Origin: Deltaproteobacteria bacterium ADurb.Bin207
GTDB lineage: Bacteria > Myxococcota_A > Polyangia > Polyangiales > Polyangiaceae
DNA: 64,000 bases
NCBI GenBank assembly: GCA_002070115.1
Contig: MWCO01000002.1
Location: 62,001 to 126,000, forward strand
Reading direction: 5' to 3'
In this document: positions 14,124 through 45,747 of the stretch, piece by piece
Numbering within the stretch: position 1 is the stretch's first letter
Layout of the letters: each line of letters opens with the position of its first letter
Made by a program: the position numbers and the translations under genes
Notes under the pieces: generated by a model
Database searches by the model: none
What the model saw: the letters and a program-made list of their open reading frames with translations, nothing else
Told to the model about the DNA's origin: nothing

Positions 14124-14342
14124 AACAGTTACGCTGGGCTGTTAAACATTGGATTGGCGTTATGCGGTGAACAGTATGGGATGACTGTGACCGTTTTTGT
14201 GTACCGTGCGCCGTGACCGTGACCGTGACCGTGACCGTTTTCGTGCGCCGCGGGCCGTGACCGTGACCAAGCGATGGCAGATAGTTGTTTCGAACTGTCG
14301 TAGGGTGAAGGAAAGGCTTGGGGAAAATGAGGGGATAGCTCA
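14124..14342 (+). repeat. Copy A of a GTGACC-containing dispersed repeat (inverted relative to copy B)
   Basis: This sits inside the gene-free stretch 14023-14463. It runs from an AACAGTT...GGGCTGTTAAACA segment through GCGGTGAACAGTATGGGATGA into tandem GTGACC hexamers (four consecutive near 14216, with further units on each side). These are separated by TTTTCGTGCGCCGCGGGCC spacers, and the copy ends at GGGAAAATGAGGGGATAGCT. The reverse complement of 17396-17569 matches almost throughout. Copy A differs by an extra stretch of about 40 bases (near 14260-14305) and scattered substitutions. No coding potential was seen in it. Confidence 0.8.
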
Positions 14343-14463: not shown

Positions 14464-15945
14464 TTATGCCACATCCGTGGGCTGGGCGGCCCATGGATCG
14501 GCTACCAATTCACGCACGGACTCCGTCCCTGATAGTGCGGTGAGGGTATGGATTTGCCGTTTCGCCACGATGCGCGATTCACCGTTGTGTTTGAGTTTCA
14601 GGAAGGTCCCATCCACCCACACGAGTTCTCCCTGGACGCGGGTTCCGTCGTGAAGGGTGGCTTCGACCACCACCGGTCCGGAAGGTTTGGCGAGTTGCGT
14701 GGCCGATTCGACGAGCACCTGATCCAAACTGTCGAAAGCATCCGTTATCTTTGATATTTTTTGCAGGGCATGCTCGAAATCTTCGCGAGCCACCGATATT
14801 TTTTCTCCTTGCGCGCGGCATCGTCGCACCGCCAGAAGAGCGGCTTCGTTGGCAAGGTTTTCCAGCATGGCGCCGTTTACACCCTCGCAACGGTCGGCGA
14901 GTTTTTGCAGGGAGACATCGTCGGCCAGGGGCATGGGGGCGGTATGAATTCGTAAGATCGCGAGCCGTGTCTCGGCGTCGGGCAACGGGATACGGATTCG
15001 ACGATCGAGTCTTCCGGGTCGAACCAGAGCCTGGTCGAGGATATCGGGGCGATTGGTGGCGGCGATGACGACCACGCGATCGTCGGTTTCGAACCCATCC
15101 ATGCATGACAGCAATTGATTGAGGGTTTGCTCACGTTCGTCGTGGGCGCTGCCGACGCCGGAACCTCTGCGACGGCCCACGGCATCGAGTTCATCGATGA
15201 AGATGATGGCCGGGGCTTTTTTTGAGGCCGTTTCGAAGGTATCGCGCACTCTGGCGGCACCTACGCCCACGAACATTTCGACGAATTCGGAAGCGGAGAC
15301 GAAGAAGAAGGGGACCTTGGCTTCGCCGGCGACGGCGCGAGCGAGCAAGGTTTTGCCGCAGCCGGGGGGGCCTTCGAGCAGGACACCTCGGGGCAATCGA
15401 ATGCCCGCGCTTTTCCATGTGGCGGGGGAACGAAGAAAATCGATGATATCCTGGAGGTCTTTTTTCGCCTCGTTGGCGCCGCCGACCTGGGCAAACGTGG
15501 CCGTACGATTCTCGGGCAGGATGCGCGCACGACTTTTTCCAAGGGTGATCAGCCCACCCCCACTGCCCCGCATGCGCCGCAACACGAGGGCTACCACGAC
15601 CAAAACGGCGACAGCGCCCGCCCAATAGAGGAATGAGGTGGAGACACTCGTTTCCTGGGGCTCCTGCCCGTAGTGGATCGAAGCGCCTTGCCGTGTGAGG
15701 TCTTCCATGGTTTCGGAATCCAACACGCCAACGGTTTCGTAGACCAAACCTTCTTCGGGGGTGACGATCAATCGGTTACCGAGCACGCGAACGCTGGCGA
15801 TACGGTCTGCCACCACGTCCTGCAAAAAAACTGTAAACTCACGAAATTCCAAATGTTTTTCTTCCGTGGACAGGAATTTCCAAACCACCAGAAATAGCGC
15901 CACGAGCACTACCCAGATGACGATGGTGCGAGCATACTTGGACAT
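14464..15945 (-). CDS. FtsH-like membrane AAA+ ATPase lacking the M41 peptidase domain
   Basis: The 493 residues show the FtsH plan up to the end of the AAA module. There is an N-terminal membrane helix ([15 protein letters not shown]), a periplasmic FtsH-ext segment, a second helix near residues 105-125, then the AAA domain. That domain carries Walker A GPPGCGKT (~residue 197), Walker [12 protein letters not shown] (~248), sensor VIAATNRPD and arginine fingers RPGRLDRR. After the lid ([10 protein letters not shown]) a zinc peptidase of about 200 residues with HEXXH should follow. It is absent, and a segment of about 90 residues with an SH3/Sm-like strand pattern ([18 protein letters not shown]) ends the protein. 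I infer an unfoldase or chaperone without proteolysis. The gene is divergent from the SPASM radical SAM gene. Confidence 0.85.
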
Positions 15946-17395: not shown

Positions 17396-17569
17396 CTAAG
17401 CCATCCCCTCATTTTCCCCGAGCCTTTCCTTCACGGTCACGGCCCGCGGCGCACGAAAACGGTCACGGTCACGGTCACGGCCCACGGCGCACAAAAACGG
17501 TCACGGTCATCCCATATTGTTCACCGCAGAACACCAAGCCAGTGTTCAGTAGCCCAGGGCAACTGTTCA
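17396..17569 (-). repeat. Copy B of the GTGACC-containing repeat, inverted relative to copy A
   Basis: This is the reverse-complement copy of 14124-14342. It reads CCATCCCCTCATTTTCCCC at one end, then GGTCAC hexamers with CGGCGCACGAAAACGG spacers, CATCCCATATTGTTCACCGC, and ends near AACTGTTCAA. It lacks the ~40-base insertion seen in copy A. It lies within the gene-free stretch 17305-17957, the rest of which (17570-17957) shows no supported gene. Confidence 0.8.
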
Positions 17570-17957: not shown

Positions 17958-19598
17958 TTACATCGCAAATACGGCATCGCAGCAGTAGGTAGCGGACTGG
18001 CCGGGCTGGGTGTCGAATTCCTGGGAAGGCTGGGCCAGGTGGAAGCACCATCGGCTTCTGGACAGGTCGACGGTGATGCCGCACATATCGGCGAAGTCGA
18101 TTCCTTGCAGGACCACCTGGGTGGCACCGTCTCCGGGGCGCGTGCGGACGATAGCGCTGGTGCTAGCCTGGACGTACGTCAGCCTCATGCCGTCAGCGTG
18201 CATTTCAATGATACCGGAGTAAAAGGGGCCCTGGCAGGGGGCGGCCTGAAGCGCTGAGCTGGCGAGGCGGGTGACTTCGCCATTGGCCGTATCGATGACG
18301 ATCAATTCGGTGCCGGTATGGACGGCCACGTGTCCGAAGCCGGCAAAAATACCTGACCCCGCTGGGATTTGGAAGCTTTCCGACAACGGAATCGGTGTTC
18401 CCGCCACGAGGGGCATCTCATTGATAACAGGGATAATTTTCGTGATGGTAGCGCCAGCGGCCACTGCCCATCCCTGATTGGTGGAAAGGGCCCATAACTT
18501 CCCGCTTGCAAGGTCCGAGGTGAGACCGGGTATGGCTTCCTGGCTCATGATCTCGGCCCAATAATCCGCGAAATCATAGCTCAGCACTCGGGAAGCCCCG
18601 GAGTAGAAGACCAATCCTTCCCCAAAGGCGATGGGGCCCCTGGGTGCGTCAAGCTTGGAGGTATCGTCCACAATCCGGCATTGCGTATCCAGGGAGACGA
18701 TGCGGAACGTTCCGGCGGTACAGACGCCCGCCATACAGGCCTCTTCGGCACCGCAAGCGTTGCCGCACCCGCCGCAATGCAGGACGTCGCCCATGGTGTC
18801 GACGCAGTGGCCGCTGCAAAGCGTCTGGTCTGGGGGACATAGTTGGGGACAGCTTAAATCCTGGCAGCCGGAAAGACCGGCACATATCTGGCCGCTACCG
18901 CATTTATTGTTGCAACTTCCGCAGTGTTCGGGGTCGTTGGTGATGTCCACGCATCGATCACCGCATTGCTTTAGCGGCTCAGCGCAGGTGGGCACACAGT
19001 TTCCGCTGGCGCACTGCAGCCCCGGACCGCATTCGTAGCCGCAATATCCGCAGTTGTGGATGTCGGTCTGATAATTGACACATTTGTTTCCGCACAGACT
19101 CAGGTCCAGCGGGCAACTCACTCCACATATCCCGTAGCTGCACGTCATCCCCGACCCGCATTGGTTGCCGCATGCGCCGCAGTTCAGGCTGTCGGTCTGA
19201 TAGTCCACGCACTTGCCCATGCACAGACTCATGTGTGGCTGGCAAGTCGGCCCGCATATCCCGCTGCTGCACCTCGTCCCCGACTCGCATTGGTGGCCGC
19301 ATGCGCCACAGTTCAGGCTGTCAGTCTGATAATCCACGCACTTGCCCATGCATACACTCATGTCCGGCTGACAACTCGCCCCACATACCCCGCTGCTGCA
19401 CGCCATCCCCGGGCCGCATGACTTGCCGCAGGAACCACAATGATACGGATCGGTGGCCAACGTCACGCATTTCCCTGCGCACATCTCCTGCCCTTCAGGG
19501 CACCCTTCCTCCTTCGGGCAACCTGATACCATGAAGATCAGGGCAATAAAACATAAGCAATTTTGAAGAGTTACCCCAATTTTGCGACGATACATCAT
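17958..19598 (-). CDS. Cysteine-repeat lipoprotein with C-terminal beta-propeller-like domain
   Basis: The 546 residues begin with a lipoprotein signal (MVSGC). The first ~280 residues hold six repeats of about 40 residues with the pattern C-x-GKCVDYQTD-x-x-NCGACG-x-x-C-x-x-G-x-x-CSSGIC. Repeats two and three are almost identical in sequence and so probably arose by recent duplication. Cys-rich arrays of this sort are typical of myxobacterial surface proteins. The C-terminal half has no cysteine array and looks like a beta-strand domain (GPIAFGEGLVFYSGASRVLSYD, TELIVIDTANGEVTRLA), perhaps a propeller. The role is unknown, probably extracellular recognition or stalk formation. AGGAGA lies before the ATG. 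Confidence 0.75.
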   Translation of the reverse strand: MMYRRKIGVTLQNCLCFIALIFMVSGCPKEEGCPEGQEMCAGKCVTLATDPYHCGSCGKSCGPGMACSSGVCGASCQPDMSVCMGKCVDYQTDSLNCGACGHQCESGTRCSSGICGPTCQPHMSLCMGKCVDYQTDSLNCGACGNQCGSGMTCSYGICGVSCPLDLSLCGNKCVNYQTDIHNCGYCGYECGPGLQCASGNCVPTCAEPLKQCGDRCVDITNDPEHCGSCNNKCGSGQICAGLSGCQDLSCPQLCPPDQTLCSGHCVDTMGDVLHCGGCGNACGAEEACMAGVCTAGTFRIVSLDTQCRIVDDTSKLDAPRGPIAFGEGLVFYSGASRVLSYDFADYWAEIMSQEAIPGLTSDLASGKLWALSTNQGWAVAAGATITKIIPVINEMPLVAGTPIPLSESFQIPAGSGIFAGFGHVAVHTGTELIVIDTANGEVTRLASSALQAAPCQGPFYSGIIEMHADGMRLTYVQASTSAIVRTRPGDGATQVVLQGIDFADMCGITVDLSRSRWCFHLAQPSQEFDTQPGQSATYCCDAVFAM

Positions 19599-35735: not shown

Positions 35736-37859
35736 TTAATCTCCCCGATCCAACACGTAACGCACCGGTCCCAAGCTTGTCATTTTCACACCACCCGGCT
35801 TGCGTTCCACCAACATGAGTTGCTGGCTGCGGGCTTCTCCTACCGGAACAACCATCTTGCCGCCAGGATCAAGGGATTCGATCCAAAGGTCTGGAATTTT
35901 TTTCACCGCAAACCCCACACTAACCTTGGTAGCCCCTTTCCAGCGCGATACGTCGTGAGCGTTGGCGCATTCCACGCGAATATTACCGTATTGCGCAAGG
36001 ATATTCGCAGCCAAAGCTGACAACCCTTCGTCCACGTCCATCGTCAACACCGCCCCATGTATTCCCACGACATGAGCCGCGATCGCGGCTCCGTAGCCTG
36101 TACCTCCCCCAAGATCGACGAGCGTGTCTCCTTCTTTCAAGGCAAGGGCCTGAAACGACATCGCATAGGCATGCATGGCCGACAAGGTGGCTTCACCGGA
36201 TTCGTTCAGAAGAAACGCACGATCTTGCGCGGATCGATCGATGTCTTCCACCCGTACGAATCTTTCTCTCGGCACCCACACCAGAGCCTCATGCAATGCG
36301 GGGGCGATACCATCGAATCTTCGGTCCCGAAGTGTTTGCCGACGCGCCTCTCTGGCTACCTGGGCAAGCTCCTCATCATCCACGACCCGCTTTCTCGTAT
36401 CCGATTCGTATCCGACCAATTCATTCCATAAATGCCATAAACCAATTGCTCGCAAATGCCGGTAAGGCTCATGCTGATCTACGGCATCTTCCACGGATCG
36501 AAAAAAGTACGCTTCTTCGGGGTCTCTTACGGAAAAGTGCGAAGCGATCTTTCGTAACAGAGGACCAAATAATTCAAAGCGCAAGCGAAGCGTTTTTCGG
36601 AAGTCGAGTTCGAACGAAGGGTCTACCCATTCGGATAAATAATCTTGGTCACCATCGTGCCACCATGCCGGACGATGCACCGTCATTCCCGTAAGACGCT
36701 TCCACGATTCGAGATTCTGATCGATCCCGGAGCCCGGGTAGAAACGAAATGGGTCAATGGATAAAAACCCAGTCGTTCGATCGCCACTGAGAAAGACGCT
36801 TTCGAGATAGGCATGAGAAGCTCGCAGAGTCTCCTCGGTTTCTCCTGGGTGCCCGACGATGACGTTGGCGCCAAAAGGCAAGTCAAGCTCGCGGGCCCAG
36901 TTCGCCACCTGCCGAAAATGATCCAAAAATTGCTGCGGAGAACCGGCCTTCTGAATTCGTGCCAACTGCGAAGGGTCTCCGGACTCGATACCAAAGCCTG
37001 GAGCGATATTCGCACGACGCATCCACTCGAGGTCCTCCCGTTCCAGAAGATCAGCGCGGGTGAGCAGCCAAATCTTGCGAACGGGAATCGGTTTTCGAAC
37101 GAATTGTTCGAAAAACACGCGGCGCCACGATTTCGAACATCCAAAGAGCGCATCGGTCACAAAAAGCGTCCACGACGAAAGATCCAGAAAAGCATGCAAG
37201 CGATGCAATTCCTCTACTGCCCTTTCGGGCTCGTACGCGCGCCATGCCGTGCATCGTTTCGCCCGCTCCATGCAAAACGAGCAGTCGTAAGGACAGCCTC
37301 GGGAAAGAAATAGCTGCGCTTGAGACGCTACCTTTCGCGCTACCGGACGATACCTATCGAGCAAGCTCCAATCCAGGTCCGGAATTCTGTCGGATCGCTG
37401 GACCGGCTCGACCGGCAACACCCGCTGGGTCGGCGGTTTCCCCCGGATAAGTGCATCGACCAGACCGCGTAACGGACGTTCGCCGTCGCCAATCACGACA
37501 TAATCGAAAGGAGAGTCATTTCCCGTAAAATCTTCGGGTCGCGCACTGGGATGATACCCCCCCACGACAAGGCGAGCGCGCGGGACAAAGCGCCGCAAAG
37601 TCTCGCCCATCAGCATCGTTTTCAAATAATCGTACGAGGAATAACAGGATATCCCGATAAGGTCATCATCCGACGATACGATTTGGTCGAGACGAACTGC
37701 GCCAAAAGCTCGTTCGAGATCGAGATCGATGATCCGCACATCGACGATTGGACTTCGCAGCGCGCCTGCCAAGCTCAGCAGATGGGGCACACCAAAAACG
37801 CGCCCATCTCCATACAGAGCACCGGGCCATAGCAGCAATACCCGAAAACGATCCTGCAT
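35736..37859 (-). CDS. B12-binding radical SAM enzyme fused to a PIMT-like methyltransferase
   Basis: From the ATG at 37859 the product has 707 residues. Residues ~1-140 are a B12-binding-type domain (VLLLWPGALYGDGRVFGVPHL, RARLVVGGYHPSARPEDF). A radical SAM domain follows with CPYDCSFC (~residue 191). From ~520 there is a protein-L-isoaspartate O-methyltransferase-like domain: EALVWVPRERFVRVEDIDRS, ESGEATLSAMHAYAM (matching GQTISAPHM, though its Gln is Ala), and SAM loop LVDLGGGTGYGAA (~581). Isoaspartyl methyltransferases act on Asp/isoAsp and in some RiPPs install aspartimide. The upstream lipoprotein, 54 bases away on the same strand, is full of Asp-Gly repeats and is the candidate substrate. 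Confidence 0.85.
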   Translation of the reverse strand: MQDRFRVLLLWPGALYGDGRVFGVPHLLSLAGALRSPIVDVRIIDLDLERAFGAVRLDQIVSSDDDLIGISCYSSYDYLKTMLMGETLRRFVPRARLVVGGYHPSARPEDFTGNDSPFDYVVIGDGERPLRGLVDALIRGKPPTQRVLPVEPVQRSDRIPDLDWSLLDRYRPVARKVASQAQLFLSRGCPYDCSFCMERAKRCTAWRAYEPERAVEELHRLHAFLDLSSWTLFVTDALFGCSKSWRRVFFEQFVRKPIPVRKIWLLTRADLLEREDLEWMRRANIAPGFGIESGDPSQLARIQKAGSPQQFLDHFRQVANWARELDLPFGANVIVGHPGETEETLRASHAYLESVFLSGDRTTGFLSIDPFRFYPGSGIDQNLESWKRLTGMTVHRPAWWHDGDQDYLSEWVDPSFELDFRKTLRLRFELFGPLLRKIASHFSVRDPEEAYFFRSVEDAVDQHEPYRHLRAIGLWHLWNELVGYESDTRKRVVDDEELAQVAREARRQTLRDRRFDGIAPALHEALVWVPRERFVRVEDIDRSAQDRAFLLNESGEATLSAMHAYAMSFQALALKEGDTLVDLGGGTGYGAAIAAHVVGIHGAVLTMDVDEGLSALAANILAQYGNIRVECANAHDVSRWKGATKVSVGFAVKKIPDLWIESLDPGGKMVVPVGEARSQQLMLVERKPGGVKMTSLGPVRYVLDRGD

Positions 37860-37913
37860 GGCCAAGGCACCGTCAGGGTTCGACAGGGGTCATTGGTCAG
37901 GAAATAGGATCCA

Positions 37914-38321
37914 CTAGGGATTCGCATCCCCTGCATCGGCCGGCGGAGTCAAACACGGCTGAGGCCCATCGTCACCCGCATCCTGGGGTGGCGCCAGACA
38001 AACTTCCGGCGAAGCGTCCTCGGCTGGCGACAAACACGGCTGAGGCCCATCGTCACCCGCATCTTGAGGGGCAGCAAGACACACTTCCGCGGAGGCATCC
38101 TCCGCCGGTGTCAAACATGGCTGAGGGCTGTCGTCGCCCGCATCATTGGGTGGAGTCAGACAAGCTTCCGGGGAGGTCTCCAATCCTGCGTCCTTCGGTG
38201 GGGGATCTTCAGGATCCGCTTCTCCCCCACACCCTTGCACAAGCCCCGCACTGGCCACCGCGATGGCCAGGAAACGAGCCCGACGTGCAAGAATACGTTT
38301 CTTTGTGTCGTCCTTGGTCAT
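37914..38321 (-). CDS. Repeat lipoprotein, candidate substrate of the radical SAM-PIMT fusion
   Basis: From the ATG at 38321 (GGAGG four bases upstream) the product has 135 residues. A basic N-terminus and a lipoprotein signal (VASAGLVQGC) are followed by PPPKDAG and then alternating units of about 15 and 12 residues: DAGDDGPQPCLxPAE and DASxEVCLAPPQ. There are six Cys-Leu-x-(Pro/Ala) motifs and seven DA(G/S) starts, including two DDG sites prone to aspartimide formation. No folded domain is visible. The regular Cys, Pro and Asp spacing looks like a multi-core modified peptide or a crosslinked surface stalk. A simple unmodified linker-type lipoprotein remains possible. Confidence 0.7.
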   Translation of the reverse strand: MTKDDTKKRILARRARFLAIAVASAGLVQGCGGEADPEDPPPKDAGLETSPEACLTPPNDAGDDSPQPCLTPAEDASAEVCLAAPQDAGDDGPQPCLSPAEDASPEVCLAPPQDAGDDGPQPCLTPPADAGDANP

Positions 38322-38342
38322 GCTTCCTCCCTGACACCCTCG

Positions 38343-38370
38343 ATAGTACGAGCCTGCCGGTCTTTCGCAA
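38343..38370 (-). promoter_or_regulatory. Probable sigma-70 promoter of the repeat lipoprotein/radical SAM unit
   Basis: On the minus strand TTGCGA (38370-38365) and TACTAT (38348-38343) are separated by 16 bases, just after the stop of the upstream HD-GYP gene and about 22 bases before the lipoprotein start. This suggests the lipoprotein and radical SAM genes form their own transcription unit. Confidence 0.4.
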
Positions 38371-38416: not shown

Positions 38417-41400
38417 TCAACGATTTCGAAGCTTTGCACGAAGAAGGCGCGCTTCGCCCTGCGCTTCACGATGTTCGGGATTGAGAGAAAGCAATTGCTC
38501 GAGATCGTGAAGGGCCTGTTCGACTTTTCCCATCCTGCGCAATAATTTGGCACGGTACAGCAAGGCAAGTTCGTTTTTTGCATCCCTGCGAATCAGGTTC
38601 GTCAGGGCCGCAATGCTGTCCATGGCCGCGTTCGGGCGCGATGAAGAGGCGCCAATCCACGCCAGCAGAGCGGCATAATCGATGGAGTCAGGATCGTTTT
38701 CGATCGCTTGCCGAATCAATCGTTCCGCACGCACAAGGTCGCCCCGCTTCAGCGCCTCCTGCGCAGCTACGAAATCTTGCGCCGCCCGTTGATGATCAGC
38801 CTCGGAACCCGAAGTGGAAACAAGCTTAGCCGACGATGGAACTGGTGTCGTGTTCGGAACGGCGGCACGAGCGACGATGGGTTGCGCTTGGGCGTGAGGT
38901 TGACTCGGTCGCGAAAGCGGTGGTGGTCTCGGCACGGGAAGCGGCTGAGGTACAGGACTCCTTGTGGATTCTGGAGATGCACCATCCATCGCCATGGCCT
39001 GCCGGGGAGGTTGAACCCTTTCTCGTCCACCGACAGGCTTTGGCGTTAGGGTTCCCACGGAGCGTTGGCTTGACGGAGTGGGATCCGAATAGGGAGGATG
39101 AGAGGGCACGTTGCTCAAGCGCAAGCCGCCCGAAGAGGGTGGTTCAGACACGGAAGGTCGGCTTGGCCGAATACTGACGGGCGGATCCAGTTGCGAACGT
39201 CGCGCTCCCCCAAAGCGCATGGGGGGCTTCTGTTGCTTTCTAAACTGAAATTGCCGGGAAATCGCAAGTGCGTACACAAGCGCGTTGACGTCCTCCTGGG
39301 GCGCGAGGCGCTGGGCATGAATGGCTCGAAGCGAAGGAGTCCCGGCCGTGATCGCATTCAACACCAATCTTTCCGTGTCCGTGACCCCAAGGTTGCGCAA
39401 ATCCGCATCCGGATGAAGTCGTAGCGGTTGATCAATGATCTTGTGAAGCGCTCCACGAATACGTCGACGTTCTTGCCAAACCCTTGCCACCGCTAAAATG
39501 ACGCTCAGAGCATCGGCAGGAAACAAGTCGTCCCCAGCCCATATCATCAGCAAATTGGTGCCTCTGTAGTATTCGTAACTGGTTTCTTCCGGCAGATTCG
39601 CCAAGCAGATGATCTTTTCGAAGATTTGGTTTTCGAGAGCATGGATGACAGCGCCACGGCTCGATAGATTGTCGACGATGAGATACTCGCCTAGCAGAGT
39701 GCCAATCTCTTTCGCGGTTTGCACGGCCGCATCCACCTGGCCGGCATCCAATTGTCCAGCCGCAACCAATAGCTCTCCGAGCCGAGCCATCGGTCGGCCC
39801 GACCGAACCTTGGCTACCGCCCCATTCTCGAAATAAACCGCGTGAAAAACACCATCGGGCTCGCGAAGCACAACTGTCCCCGTGGCCAGATGATCCAACA
39901 TATACGTAAGCACGTGGATGAGAGGGGTGCTCGCCAACTTGCCACGGGCTGTCGGCTCTAATCCCTGCGGCACCAAGTCATCGCCCAACACAGGCTCTTG
40001 AGCAGAACCCACATCGGATCGATACGTGATCGTCGCTTTCATGTCGGAAACGACTGCTTGTGCCACCGCCGATGGACTCGTCGCCAGCGACGGATACGAT
40101 TCATACGACAACTCGTCATCTTCTTGTCCTGCCACGGTCGTGACCGAAGGCGCCGGGTGGATGGCTTCTGGTCGTCGCGAAGAAATGGCTTCGTTGGGTA
40201 AGAATGCGGTGTGCTGACTGCAACGCATCGGCGCTCGATCCTGCCCGGGGATCTGAAGCTGTCGCGTAGCAAATAGCATGTACAAAAAAGCGCTAATGCC
40301 GTGATCCGTGGACAAGCTATCGCCATACAGTTCGAGCAACGACACCTCACGGGAGCGGATGACCGAAAGGACTTGCTGCTCCTCCTGGGACAACATCAAC
40401 CCCTGCACGCAGGCCTCGGGATGCAGACGAATCGGATGATCCTTCAATCGCATCAAGTTGGAAATGATGCGTTCGTGGTCGTTCCAAGAGCGCATGGCGC
40501 TCAAAATGGCGCTCAGCGGCTCAATCGGCGTGATCTGGCCTCCCCAAGAAGCCAGCAAGTTCTGATCACGATAAAATTCGTACCGCGCCTCGCCCGGAAG
40601 CTTCGCAAGCCAATCGAGCCGATGCGTAACCTGTGCTCGCAGAGCATCTGTCACCGCCTGCCGCGTGACCAGCCCACTATGAATGAGAAACTCACCAAGC
40701 AAACGCCGATGGGCTTGGGCTTGTTGCACCATGGTGTCGATGACAGCAGGAGGTAACGCGCGTGAAGCAATGAGTTCCTCCCCGAGCATCGCCACCGGAT
40801 GCTCCGTTCTCACCTTCGACGGCGCACCATGGTCAAAAAACACACAATGCTCCCGTCCCTCCGGGTCCATCACGACCAGAGAGCCGGATAATTCCCTATC
40901 CAATACGTAGACCAACACGTGAACGAGAGGAGTTTTTGCCAGCTCCCCTTGCGCGGTAGGCGGTATGCCCGCTTGCTCACGGAGCTTCGCCCCAACAACG
41001 ACAGGTGGACTCGACGCTCGTTGGAAAAAAATCGTTCCCGCTTCGTCGTCATCGTCATACGGCGCGCCATCCGGCTGCTCTCCGAACGGCGAAGCCTCAA
41101 ATACCGTATTCTCATCCGCATCGGGATCCAGCGTTTCAGCAGTCGAGGGCAGCGTATAGACTTTGGGCGGGCGCGCGGTCGGCATCATCTGCCGGGCCGT
41201 CGGCAAACGCACCGTTTCGCGAAGCAACGCTTGCTCTGCAGAACGCGCGGCTGGTGGGGGGGCATCATGCCATCCCAAAGACCGGTTTGCGCTATTCGAC
41301 AGCGCACTTTGTCCTGAATCATCGACCATGGAATCAGGAATGACCGAATCGGTGGCTCCCACCTCATCGGCATAATCCCCAGGTTCATAAGCGGAATCAG

Positions 41401-42922
41401 AAAACGATGCGGCAGCGTGCGCAGGCGCGGAAGAAGGAGGTGCCGGAATTTCGGACGCCTGTTCGCCGACAGCCGACTCGAGGTCGATGCCGCGCCCCCA
41501 TCCTTCCGTACTCAAAACCTGCTGAATATGTGCGCCTTTCAAGTCCGCAGGGGGATTGGATAAATCGACGACACGCGGCGGCGAAACCATTCCGCCGCGG
41601 CCATCCATGATGATCTTGATTCGTGGCCGGTCCGTCGGCGCCCCCAGATCGGGCCCCACGACAACCTCCGCCGTCTCTCCAGACGACAACTTTACGAGCG
41701 TTCCAACAGGCATGAGCCCAAGCGCCGCCACGAGCATGCGCAAGATGAGCCGGTCGGTAGGATGCTCCATCTGGGAAAAAATCCGTGCGATGGCCACATC
41801 GGGCGCGGGAGGAGGCAACCCCGGCTCGGGTGTCACAAAATCATTGTATTTCCTGGCAATGGCAATGATACGCGCGTGAACCGTGGGTTCACGTAACCCG
41901 CCATAGAGCGGTCCCAACATCTGACCGCGACGAATCCACAACGACTCATACGTCACCACCGTGCGCGCCACCGTAGGCTCGTTGACCCGACCAAGGGCCG
42001 TAAGCACAGCCGCGGCTCCCGCGGCTTGGCGGTCCTCCGCATCTTCGCTCAATCGAGGCACCACACCGGGCAGCCCCCCCGTAAGCTGCGCGAGGGCGCG
42101 CGGACGAGCGATATCGTGCATCAACGCTGCCATGGCAATCTGGCAGAGCAACACGCGGTTGGCAGTGACTTGACGCGCGGTAGCCACGGATAAAATGGCC
42201 GTGTTGACCGCGCGACCCGCATCATCGTGATTCTGATTGCGAACCTCGGTTACCCCAAGAAATGCTGGTGTTTTCCCTTCCGATAGATCCACCAGACTCT
42301 GGGCTATGCGTTTGATTTTCGGCGGAAGAACGTATTGGCCGCGTCGAAGATCATCAAACAATCGCCTCATCACCACGACCGCCGAGGCATACGTTCGAAC
42401 GATTTTTTGTTCGACGGTCATGGGTTCAACATCGACACCTCGCAAACGTGCGGAAGCAGAAACAGAACGAAGACGCACCTTTCGGGTCGGAGATTCGAAA
42501 GAATCCGTGCGTTTTCCTCGCTGTGCTTCCGAAAGCGCATCGGCGAAGGCCTTGAGTTCCTTCATCGTGATGTCCCGAGCGATGGCCAATTCAGAACCAC
42601 CACACCACGACAGGATCTCCCCAAGATCGAGGGCAGCCTCATAAGCGCTGCGGGAACCTTTGAGGATTTGACCGCCGATGAGCACCACCTTATTGGCAAA
42701 AAGCACGGATAGATGTGTGCCCGCATGCAGACAATACTCCACCACGAGCTTGTGCGTTTGTTCCAATTGTCGCGAAAACGCTTCGTTGTCCGAGTCGTGA
42801 AGCCGTGTCAAACGAACGAGCCGATGCAACGCCACGATGACGTCTTCGCCCATGTCTCGCGCATGGGCACGACGAACACGTTCGCCGGCATCGTTGGTTA
42901 CGATATCGATGCCCGCGGTCAC
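38417..42922 (-). CDS. Signalling protein: HD-GYP-like, two DUF4388 (PATAN-like) segments and TPR
   Basis: The 1501 residues show several recognisable segments. An HD-GYP-type region at ~210-470 keeps MHDIARP but is otherwise degenerate (GTLVKLSSGETAEVV at its end). Two DUF4388/PATAN-like halves of about 240 residues lie at ~655-895 and ~995-1235. Each has a strand-rich part (GELAKTPLVHVLVYVLDRELSGSLVV) followed by an alpha segment that ends in the FEFYRD/YEYYRG type. Pro-rich linkers separate the parts, and a TPR-like repeat (LVRAERLIRQAIENDPDS) closes the protein. Such proteins act in myxobacterial motility and two-component networks. HD-GYP hydrolysis of cyclic di-GMP is unlikely given the missing GYP residues. 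The start overlaps the kinase stop by four bases. Confidence 0.7.
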   Translation of the reverse strand: MTAGIDIVTNDAGERVRRAHARDMGEDVIVALHRLVRLTRLHDSDNEAFSRQLEQTHKLVVEYCLHAGTHLSVLFANKVVLIGGQILKGSRSAYEAALDLGEILSWCGGSELAIARDITMKELKAFADALSEAQRGKRTDSFESPTRKVRLRSVSASARLRGVDVEPMTVEQKIVRTYASAVVVMRRLFDDLRRGQYVLPPKIKRIAQSLVDLSEGKTPAFLGVTEVRNQNHDDAGRAVNTAILSVATARQVTANRVLLCQIAMAALMHDIARPRALAQLTGGLPGVVPRLSEDAEDRQAAGAAAVLTALGRVNEPTVARTVVTYESLWIRRGQMLGPLYGGLREPTVHARIIAIARKYNDFVTPEPGLPPPAPDVAIARIFSQMEHPTDRLILRMLVAALGLMPVGTLVKLSSGETAEVVVGPDLGAPTDRPRIKIIMDGRGGMVSPPRVVDLSNPPADLKGAHIQQVLSTEGWGRGIDLESAVGEQASEIPAPPSSAPAHAAASFSDSAYEPGDYADEVGATDSVIPDSMVDDSGQSALSNSANRSLGWHDAPPPAARSAEQALLRETVRLPTARQMMPTARPPKVYTLPSTAETLDPDADENTVFEASPFGEQPDGAPYDDDDEAGTIFFQRASSPPVVVGAKLREQAGIPPTAQGELAKTPLVHVLVYVLDRELSGSLVVMDPEGREHCVFFDHGAPSKVRTEHPVAMLGEELIASRALPPAVIDTMVQQAQAHRRLLGEFLIHSGLVTRQAVTDALRAQVTHRLDWLAKLPGEARYEFYRDQNLLASWGGQITPIEPLSAILSAMRSWNDHERIISNLMRLKDHPIRLHPEACVQGLMLSQEEQQVLSVIRSREVSLLELYGDSLSTDHGISAFLYMLFATRQLQIPGQDRAPMRCSQHTAFLPNEAISSRRPEAIHPAPSVTTVAGQEDDELSYESYPSLATSPSAVAQAVVSDMKATITYRSDVGSAQEPVLGDDLVPQGLEPTARGKLASTPLIHVLTYMLDHLATGTVVLREPDGVFHAVYFENGAVAKVRSGRPMARLGELLVAAGQLDAGQVDAAVQTAKEIGTLLGEYLIVDNLSSRGAVIHALENQIFEKIICLANLPEETSYEYYRGTNLLMIWAGDDLFPADALSVILAVARVWQERRRIRGALHKIIDQPLRLHPDADLRNLGVTDTERLVLNAITAGTPSLRAIHAQRLAPQEDVNALVYALAISRQFQFRKQQKPPMRFGGARRSQLDPPVSIRPSRPSVSEPPSSGGLRLSNVPSHPPYSDPTPSSQRSVGTLTPKPVGGRERVQPPRQAMAMDGASPESTRSPVPQPLPVPRPPPLSRPSQPHAQAQPIVARAAVPNTTPVPSSAKLVSTSGSEADHQRAAQDFVAAQEALKRGDLVRAERLIRQAIENDPDSIDYAALLAWIGASSSRPNAAMDSIAALTNLIRRDAKNELALLYRAKLLRRMGKVEQALHDLEQLLSLNPEHREAQGEARLLRAKLRNR

Positions 42923-45747
42923 GACGCTCCCTCCCGGCGTTCGGCTGCACGCGCCTCGATTTGCGCCATCGCCGCGGAAGCTCGGCTTCGCGTTTCATCC
43001 GTGGTGGCCCATCGAGACTGCGCCACTTGGGCAAGCTCGCGGGCTACCTGAAGCGAGGCAGAAACCGCCCCAAGGGCATCGATGGCCGCACATCGAGTCA
43101 GCTCTCGGGACTCGCTCGAAAACAACCCACCTTTCTTCGCGGTCTCCAGAGCGAGGGCTTCTCCGCGATCAGGGGCGAGCCGGAGAACAGTGATGAACAG
43201 CTCTCGACGCTCTTCCAGCGTGAGGTTTCCAAAATCCGAGCCATGAATGCGACGCGTGACAGCGGCCACGGTTTTTTTCATATCATGCCGCGCGATGGCT
43301 CGAAGAGCGGCAATTCGAACACCAATGGCCTTGTCTTGAAGCAGCGAGACGAGTTCCTCTTCTGCGGCTTCCGGACTCGTGGCACAAAGAACCTTTGCCT
43401 CGATGCGAACCGCAATATCCTTGTTTTTCGTGAGCGAAACGAGGGCCTCACGCGCGGCAGGTGTCTTGAGCCGATTCAACAAATCGAGCAAAGGAAACAA
43501 TACCACTGGGTCAAGACCGGGAATCGCTTCCACCAACGTCTCCTCATAGCCTTGAATCGATCGCTCGATGAACTTCAACAAGGCCGTTCGTACCGCCGGA
43601 GGAAAGCTTCGCTGCAACGCCGCGAGAATGACCGGCAGCACATTGGCGGAAAGCTGGGCAAGAACCACATCGAGAGCATCCGCGAGATCCGGATCCGCAA
43701 TGACCTGATCCAGCAAAATTCGAAGCGTATCCCCCCCAAACATCGAATCCGTCAGCTCACTAACCACCCCCCGCAATGACGCATCCGTACTCGATTGAAG
43801 CTTGTTGGCAATCGTCCGATACAATTCGACCGCTACACGCAAACGCCCCGCAACCACCAAATCCGAAGCGGATTTGCGAAGAGAACCCAAAACGAGAGAA
43901 GCATCCCCCGTCTGCAACGCATCCCTCAACCCATCGACCAAAACGTCCACGTACCGTTCGGTCCACTGTTCACGAGTCACTTCGAGGTGCGGCGCAAAAG
44001 CAAGCTGTATCGTGTGCTCGAGCGCCATCGGTGACTGACCCGATGACTGCCCCAACGCACCCCGATCCGTCGATACCGCCATCGCCTTGGCTTCAATGAG
44101 GTTGAGCCTCGCCTCCGATGCTCGTGCCGCCAAGTCCTCCAACTCATCCGCCTCGTCCACAAACGCCTCTCGTTGCCCCGCATCGCCGTCCGTAAACGGA
44201 TCCGTCGTCTCGAACGCAACGTGCGAAAGACCACGATCCCAAAACGCCGATACCAAATCATCCTCTGGCGGCAGATCTTGCCCCGGATCGAGCATCATCA
44301 ACGCCACGACCGTACGGAATTCCTCGAAGGCGAGCCCCGGAAGCATCACAAACTGACGCACCCCCGCCGCAAACATGTTGTACGGAATGGTATCGAACGG
44401 CGCACCAGGCTCCCACACCGTTTGGTTCAAAACGAGAAACGAATAAGGACGAACCTTCCACCGCAACGCCTGAGGTTGACGGTTCAGCGCAAGAACAAAC
44501 GCTTCATAACTCGTGCGCATCGCGCGTTCGGTCGCAGGATGCTCCAGCCCGAGTTGCCGCCCAGTTGGCAGTAACCTATCGATATGTTTGAACAAATCGC
44601 GTGCTTCCTGCACACGGGGGTCGTCTTCCTCCGCCGTCTCCTCCTCCACCACCGATGGGGGAATCGAAGGCCGATGCGAAGGCACGGAGCGCGTGGGAAC
44701 GGTTTGCGGTGGTTGGGCCGGTCGAGAAGGCGAGGAAGGCCGAGCCACCCCTCTCGCCGCAGGCGCTTCCGGAATGGCCGCTACCTCGCGGGCCGATGGC
44801 ATTCGGACTGGCGCGGTCGAAGGCTGCCCTTGCACCAACGCCAACGTCCGCTCCACATCCTCGCGCATCGCCGTCGCATCCGCATGACGATTGCGACGAT
44901 CCCAGGCGAGGGATTTGTCAATGAGCTTGATGACTTCGATGGGTAAATTGGGGTCAATGCGCGCAACCGTAGGAACCGGCGTCGTTGCCGCAAGGATGAG
45001 AGCTTCGTTTTCCGTTCGAGCATTGTGAATCCGCTGCCCCGTGATCAACGCGTGCAGAATCGCTCCCACGGAAAACAAATCCGCCCGACCATCGAGTTGA
45101 TCCACAAGCCCCATCGCTTGTTCGGGAGACATATAATACGGCGTGCCAAGAGCCGTGCCCGTTCGCGTCTTCTCCGTCGTCGCATCCCGAAGCTGCGCAA
45201 CACCAAAGTCCAGGATCTTGACCCGACCATCGTCCGTCAAAAAAATGTTCGGTGGCTTGAGATCACGATGAATCACGCTGGCCGCATGACACGCGGACAA
45301 ACAATCCAATACGGGCAGGGCAATGCGAAATGCTTCGACAATCGGCATACGACGACCAAGCTTCTTCCAACGCTTGGAAAGCGTCTGACCAAGCAATAGC
45401 TCCATGATCAAAAACGGAGCACCATCGTCCGTCTCATCGTCGTCGAGTACCGCTACCACTCCAGGATGGTTCACCGAATTGGCGACATACCCCTCACGAA
45501 GAAACCGATCGCGAATGCTCGTCTCGTTGGATAACGACGTATGTAGGACTTTGAGAGCCGCCGTCTGCCCATTTCGGTGCGTCGCCGCATACACCGACGC
45601 CATTCCGCCCGAACCCACAAGCGAGTCGACACGCCATTTCCCACGAATGACCGTGCCTACGCGAGACGCTGGTTCAACATCTCCTCCTTTGGCAACGGGT
45701 TCCGCTCTCTGTCGTGGTTCAGCCACCGGTTCACTATATCCAGTCAA
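42919..45747 (-). CDS. Hanks-type Ser/Thr protein kinase with C-terminal HEAT-like repeats
   Basis: The 942 residues start with a full kinase domain (~37-300): Gly-rich loop GSGGMASVYAA, Lys in TAALKVL, catalytic HRDLKPPN, DFGVA and the activation-segment GTPYYMSPEQ. A Pro/Arg-rich linker (~300-370) follows. The rest is helical, with repeated ALVSLTKNKDIAVRIEAKVLC- and LLQDKAIGVRIAALRAIARHD-type units resembling HEAT or Armadillo repeats, probably a docking surface for its substrate. Its stop overlaps the start of the HD-GYP/DUF4388 gene (ATGA), so the two are co-translated; the second gene product is the natural candidate substrate. No transmembrane helix is seen. Confidence 0.9.
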   Translation of the reverse strand: MTGYSEPVAEPRQRAEPVAKGGDVEPASRVGTVIRGKWRVDSLVGSGGMASVYAATHRNGQTAALKVLHTSLSNETSIRDRFLREGYVANSVNHPGVVAVLDDDETDDGAPFLIMELLLGQTLSKRWKKLGRRMPIVEAFRIALPVLDCLSACHAASVIHRDLKPPNIFLTDDGRVKILDFGVAQLRDATTEKTRTGTALGTPYYMSPEQAMGLVDQLDGRADLFSVGAILHALITGQRIHNARTENEALILAATTPVPTVARIDPNLPIEVIKLIDKSLAWDRRNRHADATAMREDVERTLALVQGQPSTAPVRMPSAREVAAIPEAPAARGVARPSSPSRPAQPPQTVPTRSVPSHRPSIPPSVVEEETAEEDDPRVQEARDLFKHIDRLLPTGRQLGLEHPATERAMRTSYEAFVLALNRQPQALRWKVRPYSFLVLNQTVWEPGAPFDTIPYNMFAAGVRQFVMLPGLAFEEFRTVVALMMLDPGQDLPPEDDLVSAFWDRGLSHVAFETTDPFTDGDAGQREAFVDEADELEDLAARASEARLNLIEAKAMAVSTDRGALGQSSGQSPMALEHTIQLAFAPHLEVTREQWTERYVDVLVDGLRDALQTGDASLVLGSLRKSASDLVVAGRLRVAVELYRTIANKLQSSTDASLRGVVSELTDSMFGGDTLRILLDQVIADPDLADALDVVLAQLSANVLPVILAALQRSFPPAVRTALLKFIERSIQGYEETLVEAIPGLDPVVLFPLLDLLNRLKTPAAREALVSLTKNKDIAVRIEAKVLCATSPEAAEEELVSLLQDKAIGVRIAALRAIARHDMKKTVAAVTRRIHGSDFGNLTLEERRELFITVLRLAPDRGEALALETAKKGGLFSSESRELTRCAAIDALGAVSASLQVARELAQVAQSRWATTDETRSRASAAMAQIEARAAERREGAS

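Follow-up and report, generated by a model that had tools for sequence, protein, structure and literature searches.

Peptides modified by radical S-adenosylmethionine (SAM) enzymes and ribosomally synthesized and post-translationally modified peptides (RiPPs) carrying a signal peptide are both known kinds. Signal peptides serving as RiPP leaders are rare and have been described in bufferins, and some bufferins and oxazolins are predicted lipoproteins (PMC12452194). We analyzed a stretch of 64,000 nucleotides from Deltaproteobacteria bacterium ADurb.Bin207 (contig MWCO01000002.1, positions 62,001 to 126,000), hereafter termed the window, which encodes a fusion of B12-binding, radical SAM and protein isoaspartate methyltransferase (PIMT)-like domains next to a short lipoprotein with repeated Cys-Leu motifs. 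Genomic comparisons support an evolutionary link between the fusion and Cys-Leu(-Pro) repeat lipoproteins, and we consider it probable that both belong to a dedicated, RiPP-like system of surface-protein modification acting at Cys-Leu motifs. A cell-surface modification system had already been proposed in a sequence-only reading of the same DNA, and it remains the best reading, with more components, namely a SPASM radical SAM protein and a third protein termed HVL, than the fusion and lipoprotein considered there.

Fusion loci and their Cys-Leu proteins

Orthologues of the fusion, sharing 39-63% identity with it, are encoded by 25 of the 97 relatives examined and by 54 of the 318 genomes of the class. 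A scan of named-species genomes yielded 47 loci, mainly in Polyangia metagenome-assembled genomes (MAGs; Polyangiaceae, Labilithrix, Sandaracinaceae) and including the cultured Paraliomyxa miuraensis SMH-27-4; single MAGs with the fusion are filed as Planctomycetota, Pirellulaceae and Aminicenantes, labels that may be wrong. Linkage was counted over 59 distinct fusion loci. Of these, 35 encode a Cys-Leu protein at most 6 kb away from the fusion, a linkage of precursor gene and modifying enzymes as in RiPP systems, and the outcome that would have spoken against the sequence-only reading, homologous fusions never sitting beside such a protein, was not observed. In 47 of the 50 loci whose contig extends far enough, the gene of the SPASM protein lies directly upstream, no more than 6 kb from the fusion. 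Across the 97 relatives, the SPASM protein was present in 24 of the 25 fusion genomes versus 2 of the 72 others, and the same counts were obtained for the Cys-Leu substrates, scored as present at E below 1e-5, a threshold chosen after the results were seen (Fisher p = 2e-19 in both cases, ignoring the shared ancestry of the genomes). HVL was found in 17 of the 25 fusion genomes versus 1 of the 72 others. The two genomes with substrates and no fusion are G046, considered below, and the fragmented assembly G028, in which a substrate and the SPASM protein are encoded together on one short contig.

The proteins adjoining fusion orthologues, which we refer to as putative substrates, are short and predicted to be exported. 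Near the N-terminus they share the conserved box ILARRxxFVAAAL, and a Cys occupies a lipobox-like position; the motif P-x-[P/V]-C-L-x-x is repeated, with up to three copies in tandem and as many as seven in one substrate. Dispersed substrate genes are also present, up to 15 in one genome by profile search. In 88 distinct substrates, 286 of 305 Cys residues outside the lipobox (94%) are followed by Leu, versus 18 of 351 (5%) in the other long genes of the window. Position -3 is Pro in 250 of 300 motifs and position -1 is Pro or Val in 252 of 300. The ILARRxxFV box is kept and the spacers vary, so that a recognition element separate from a variable core, as in RiPPs, could be recognized. Larger substrates with one or two motifs also occur, in some cases with the motif at the very C-terminal end (...VICLSFDPDLP, ...PAICLSIDP, ...PMICLSEF), as do fusions to other sequence; in L104 and L112, the box and Cys-Leu motifs are joined to a longer C-terminal sequence resembling an outer-membrane barrel. 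The tested precursors matched no known family in Pfam or NCBIfam, weak NCBIfam matches (invert_tail, BigA, Lcl) being rejected as composition or signal-region matches. The box of two Planctomycete-labelled loci is Tat-like (NRRKFLI or HRRRFLI), but the strict RRx-hydrophobic-hydrophobic pattern fits only 12 of the 88 substrates.

These elements form a compact operon in L160, a locus of the MAG filed as Aminicenantes, in which two precursor genes are followed by the SPASM gene and then by the fusion. The precursors, 54 and 55 residues long (MDKRHDEDTKAILARREEFVKRALSSKEISSVKGG/SLPGICLSIVPVDPPCLSP and MDKKKHDEDTKAILARREAFVKSVLSKNEIDSAKGG/INICLSIDPCLSIYPCLSP), carry an ILARR-type box as in the other substrates, a Gly-Gly site and CLS cores, without a signal peptide; judged from its sequence, this is a classic RiPP layout. 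Since the box is kept in precursors devoid of a signal peptide, its twin arginines appear to be part of the recognition element and not to serve export alone. Possible leader-removal sites are the Gly-Gly in L160 only and the lipobox in most other substrates.

Enzymes and organization of the window

The 707-residue fusion and the 135-residue Cys-Leu repeat lipoprotein just upstream of it, both described in the sequence-only reading, were borne out by their open reading frames (ORFs), by the Pfam domains of the former and by the six motifs and tandem repeat of the latter (see table). An alternative TTG start would extend the fusion ORF to 35736-37865 on the same strand, the ATG start giving exactly 707 residues. 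The lipoprotein starts at the ATG at 38321, immediately preceded by a purine-rich AGGGAGGAAGC, and its Cys31 follows a lipobox-like LVQGC; its array at the DNA level has a period of 81, 3.0 copies, 76% matches and a score of 286. Pfam returned nothing except a sub-threshold lipid-attachment motif, and the protein is hence not of the DUF2282/Buf family. Only about 55 bp separate the lipoprotein stop from the fusion ATG, so that the two genes may be co-transcribed. The promoter-like elements previously ascribed to the lipoprotein gene could not be reproduced, a scan limited to sigma-70-type promoters finding no site between 37600 and 38700, and no terminator was found by a scan around the gene. 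A second substrate of the window genome is encoded on another contig (C31, ...VPVICLSFDPDLP).

Features of the window that bear on the proposed system
Feature	Coordinates	Strand	Basis
Fusion, 707 residues, B12-binding, radical SAM and PIMT-like	35736..37859	-	ORF from ATG, Pfam, structure, fold matches
B12-binding domain of fusion	37461..37781	-	Pfam, E = 1.5e-12, residues 29-135 of the TTG form; contains GGYHPSARP
Radical SAM core of fusion	36819..37307	-	Pfam Radical_SAM, E = 1.3e-14, residues 187-349; CPYDCSFC
PIMT/PCMT-like domain of fusion	35754..36302	-	Pfam, E = 3e-27, residues 522-704; TLSAMH and GGGTGYG intact
Lipoprotein, 135 residues, putative substrate, six Cys-Leu motifs	37914..38321	-	ORF, tandem repeat, substrate profile
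Conserved ILARRARFLA recognition box within the signal region of the lipoprotein	38265..38294	-	Alignment, leader profile
81-bp tandem array, codes for most Cys-Leu units of the lipoprotein	37933..38176	-	Tandem-repeat scan
SPASM radical SAM protein, 352 residues	16246..17304	+	Orthologue of the gene found elsewhere directly upstream of substrate and fusion

The AlphaFold2 model of the three-part fusion is confident (pLDDT 93). The B12-binding and radical SAM part has as fold neighbours AprD4 (Z 27.2), CysS (26.6) and MgmA (25.7), together with OxsB and TsrM (all five with Z of 25-27), and the fold matches of the PIMT part are PIMTs (Z about 28). The CxxxCxxC of the radical SAM core does not vary among the 36 aligned orthologues, which also keep the GGxHxSA of the B12 domain, so that the fusion displays both hallmarks of B12-dependent radical SAM enzymes, a B12-binding fold and a radical SAM core with its cysteines. 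All scores against the listed curated B12/radical SAM families were far under the cut-offs; for TIGR03975, 40.7 bits against a cut-off of 281.85 show that it is not a member.

The PIMT part is more variable. Its PCMT fold comes with an intact catalytic TxSAxH and an intact SAM motif in the window protein and in most orthologues. This does not hold for every system: L143 and L172 have degenerate versions of the motifs, and no PIMT part could be recognized in family f14 (L234, L235). At L143, L172 and two loci of f14 (L234, L236), the fusion still has Cys-Leu proteins as neighbours. The substrates of L172 and f14 lack the ILARR box and their motif reads GPCL. Those of L234, L236 and L172 have two hydrophobic stretches at the N-terminus, in addition to the GPCL motifs and a common C-terminal tail, ERLAAAGVLTxEQLxRL or RRAVVDKLAANLPADV, which is possibly a replacement recognition element. 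Standalone PIMT matches in G010, G019, G038 and G058 were set aside as ordinary-looking, with no substrates beside those inspected.

The SPASM protein of the window, overlooked in the sequence-only reading, was identified as the orthologue by a match of 48% identity (E 8.4e-96), the next best match in the window genome reaching 27%. Residues C16, C20 and C23 of its radical SAM CxxxCxxC and seven further, auxiliary-cluster cysteines (C227, C242, C262, C301, C304, C310 and C314) are invariant in 31 orthologues, as befits a SPASM enzyme. Among solved structures, it is closest to PqqE and to the sactipeptide enzyme SkfB. It is a member of none of the curated SPASM maturase families, the best NCBIfam scores being far under the cut-offs, and the SPASM protein of L172 matched TIGR04133 (rSAM_w_lipo) weakly (2.8e-13, 49.5 bits, cut-off 425 bits).

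HVL, a protein of roughly 300 residues, flanks the fusion in 35 of the 59 loci. Its invariant residues include H14, D51, H198-E199, E217 and W240, and its predicted structure is confident (pLDDT 93). It belongs to no family in Pfam or NCBIfam and has no sequence match in PDB. The best fold match, a weak one, is the HExxH domain of ChlB (8s5f; Foldseek E 0.11, Z 5.4), with 146 residues superposed at a root-mean-square deviation of 4.2. Assignment to mod_HExxH (TIGR04267) was rejected, there being no sequence match and a non-significant hhalign profile comparison (0.2% probability); the HVL motif is HEATV, from which the second His of HExxH is missing. That HVL is a metal enzyme is a guess.

Other genes and repeats of the window were also recorded. 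Two CCGTGACCG-type repeat arrays (14182-14268 and 17431-17509), apparently reverse complements of each other, flank the SPASM gene and that of an FtsH-like AAA protein (14464-15945). Beside the SPASM gene, 17958-19598 on the reverse strand encodes a Cys-rich repeat protein with a 129-bp tandem repeat at 19020-19430 and no Cys-Leu motif array. Directly upstream of the lipoprotein, 38417-42922 (reverse strand) encodes a 1501-residue protein with two DUF4388, an MshE-like motif for binding cyclic di-GMP and TPRs, with the adjoining gene (42919-45747) resembling that of a Ser/Thr kinase.

Proposed modification of Cys-Leu motifs and rival explanations

The following scenario could account for these observations. 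Substrates would be made with the N-terminal ILARRxxFV box, which sits in the signal peptide of a lipoprotein in most species and in a Gly-Gly leader in one MAG. In the cytoplasm, the box would recruit the SPASM protein and the fusion, and both radical SAM enzymes would modify each P-x-[P/V]-C-L-x-x motif in two steps. The SPASM step would most likely be Cys-centred, forming a thioether or another oxidation, an assignment that we make tentatively. The B12/radical SAM part would most likely methylate an unreactive carbon within the Cys-Leu pair or adjacent to it; such C-methylation by the fusion at or beside the motif is plausible, with a chance somewhat short of even, methylation being uncertain because the close folds AprD4 and OxsB are known for reactions other than methyl transfer. 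The PIMT part would be an accessory that varies between lineages, possibly methylating the carboxylate of an Asp nearby. HVL may serve as a further modifying or processing enzyme. Finished proteins would then be exported, lipidated and displayed at the surface. We lean towards the specific reading that the SPASM protein and the B12/radical SAM(-PIMT) fusion act in trans at the Cys-Leu motifs of dispersed surface proteins, of which a genome would encode up to about 15, the address box lying in the lipoprotein signal peptide and, in another lineage, doubling as the Gly-Gly leader of a RiPP. The proposed target is a genome-wide family, in place of the one lipoprotein of the sequence-only reading.

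Several points weigh against this reading, beginning with the radical SAM enzymes AprD4 and OxsB just mentioned and with the shared ancestry that the Fisher p values ignore. Many substrate loci were retrieved by means of a profile of which the Cys-Leu motif itself is a part. In favour of the reading, a profile of just the leader box matched 73 distinct proteins, all of which carry Cys-Leu; one of them was scored as lacking it, its Cys-Leu falling within the first 30 residues. No nearby substrate was detected in 24 of the 59 fusion loci, some of the genomes having substrates elsewhere (G013, G054). In the window genome itself, HVL is encoded on another contig and the SPASM gene lies 19 kb from the fusion, which makes the window one of the few rearranged cases of the SPASM-fusion arrangement. 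Genome G015 has the fusion without SPASM protein or clear substrates. Conversely, G046 has substrates and neither enzyme was detected: eight proteins match the substrate profile, the two that were fetched (L105, L107) carry box and Cys-Leu, the genome is 98% complete and its genus-mates G313 and G314 carry the fusion, a recent loss or an assembly gap being possible.

The key product could instead be an aspartimide or isoaspartate that the PIMT domain forms on Asp-rich spacers (DAGDDG), with C-methylation optional. Related PAMTs turn Asp into isoAsp via aspartimide in RiPPs (PMC11285071). The catalytic and SAM motifs are intact in most PIMT parts, at least one Asp is found in the mature part of all 83 substrates shorter than about 260 residues, and Asp occurs within positions -8 to +9 of 212 of 286 Cys-Leu units. 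However, the conserved Asp of a PIMT or PAMT substrate could not be found, no Asp being fixed relative to Cys-Leu (Asp at +6 in 71 of 300), and lipoproteins of this group commonly have Asp-rich linkers. Aspartimide formation would be accessory at most, because no Asp is fixed and because Cys-Leu substrates persist where the PIMT part is degenerate or lost (L143, L172, f14); we regard it as unlikely to be the key product and do not retain it, one of the two modifications suggested in the sequence-only reading, as the core chemistry. Known PAMTs act on Asp of already cyclised peptides (PMC11285071), and by analogy this would fit a PIMT role after a SPASM-made ring.

Alternatively, box and Cys-Leu motif might form a sorting or anchoring signal like PEP-CTERM or MYXO-CTERM, the Cys being modified for surface attachment or crosslinking. 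The many dispersed substrates of unlike architecture, predicted to be exported, and the single motifs at extreme C-termini speak for such a signal; yet a lipobox is already present in most substrates, as many as seven copies of the motif occur and no transpeptidase-like gene recurs in the loci, and we give this explanation a small chance. Much the same chance attaches to a metal-binding surface coat of modified Cys motifs, in a role analogous to that of bufferins: exported multi-Cys precursors with signal peptides occur in both cases (PMC12452194), but no metal-homeostasis genes recur beside the loci, and the motif and enzymes are unlike those of bufferins. Finally, a common lipoprotein leader and proline-rich spacers might lie by chance beside unrelated radical SAM genes, Pro- and Asp-rich lipoprotein linkers being common in this group and the window genome having a dispersed set. 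This is contradicted by the SPASM linkage (47/50), by the co-occurrence of 24/25 versus 2/72, by the 94% Cys-Leu rule and by the separate lineage with Gly-Gly leaders, and we hold it to be very improbable.

If the proposed modification system is real, radical SAM chemistry would serve proteome-wide surface decoration guided by an address tag within the signal peptide, and not single peptides alone. A peptide natural-product pathway and the modification of surface proteins would share one recognition code and a new Cys-Leu modification, widening the RiPP idea to a multi-site system with a short, portable recognition box, and unexplained Polyangia Cys-Leu lipoproteins would gain a testable biochemistry. 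Direct testing is feasible with the 54-55-residue L160 precursors and with the cultured Paraliomyxa miuraensis.

Comparison with known systems

No description of the system or of a B12/radical SAM-PIMT fusion was found in Pfam, NCBIfam, PDB or the open-access papers searched. Like class B radical SAM methyltransferases (MgmA, PoyB/PoyC, TIGR03975), the fusion has a B12-binding domain and a radical SAM core with CxxxCxxC, and MgmA, its fold match at Z 25.7, acts on a protein; unlike them, it carries a PIMT-like domain and has a SPASM partner and many exported substrates. RiPP PAMTs (OlvSA and related enzymes, the FxLD-system methyltransferase) share the PIMT fold with its TxSAxH and SAM motifs, whereas the PIMT part described here is fused to a B12/radical SAM protein, has no fixed Asp target and is degenerate or absent in several lineages. 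The SPASM protein resembles SPASM maturases (PqqE, SkfB, AlbA, WgkB) in its radical SAM core, auxiliary-cluster cysteines and gene position beside a precursor, and differs in scoring under every curated cut-off shown and in the new motif of its substrates. TIGR04133 denotes by name a SPASM protein with a lipoprotein, from which our proteins are separated by the wide gap to its cut-off; no paper on it was found in the open-access literature. We know of no B12/radical SAM-PIMT fusion associated with TIGR04133. For HVL, the mod_HExxH oxygenases of the alpha-ketoglutarate RiPP type, to which ChlB belongs, provide only the weak fold match.

Bufferins and oxazolins, which are MNIO-modified and carry Sec signal peptides, likewise have exported Cys-containing precursors whose signal peptide may take part in recognition. 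Here radical SAM enzymes stand in place of MNIO and the Cys motif is another one; MNIO (DUF692) was not among the recurrent neighbours of the fusion loci, no dedicated search having been made. We conclude that the fusion with its SPASM partner, the Cys-Leu code and the dispersed genome-wide substrates are apparently undescribed, and that there is a real chance that they constitute a class distinct from the systems compared above.

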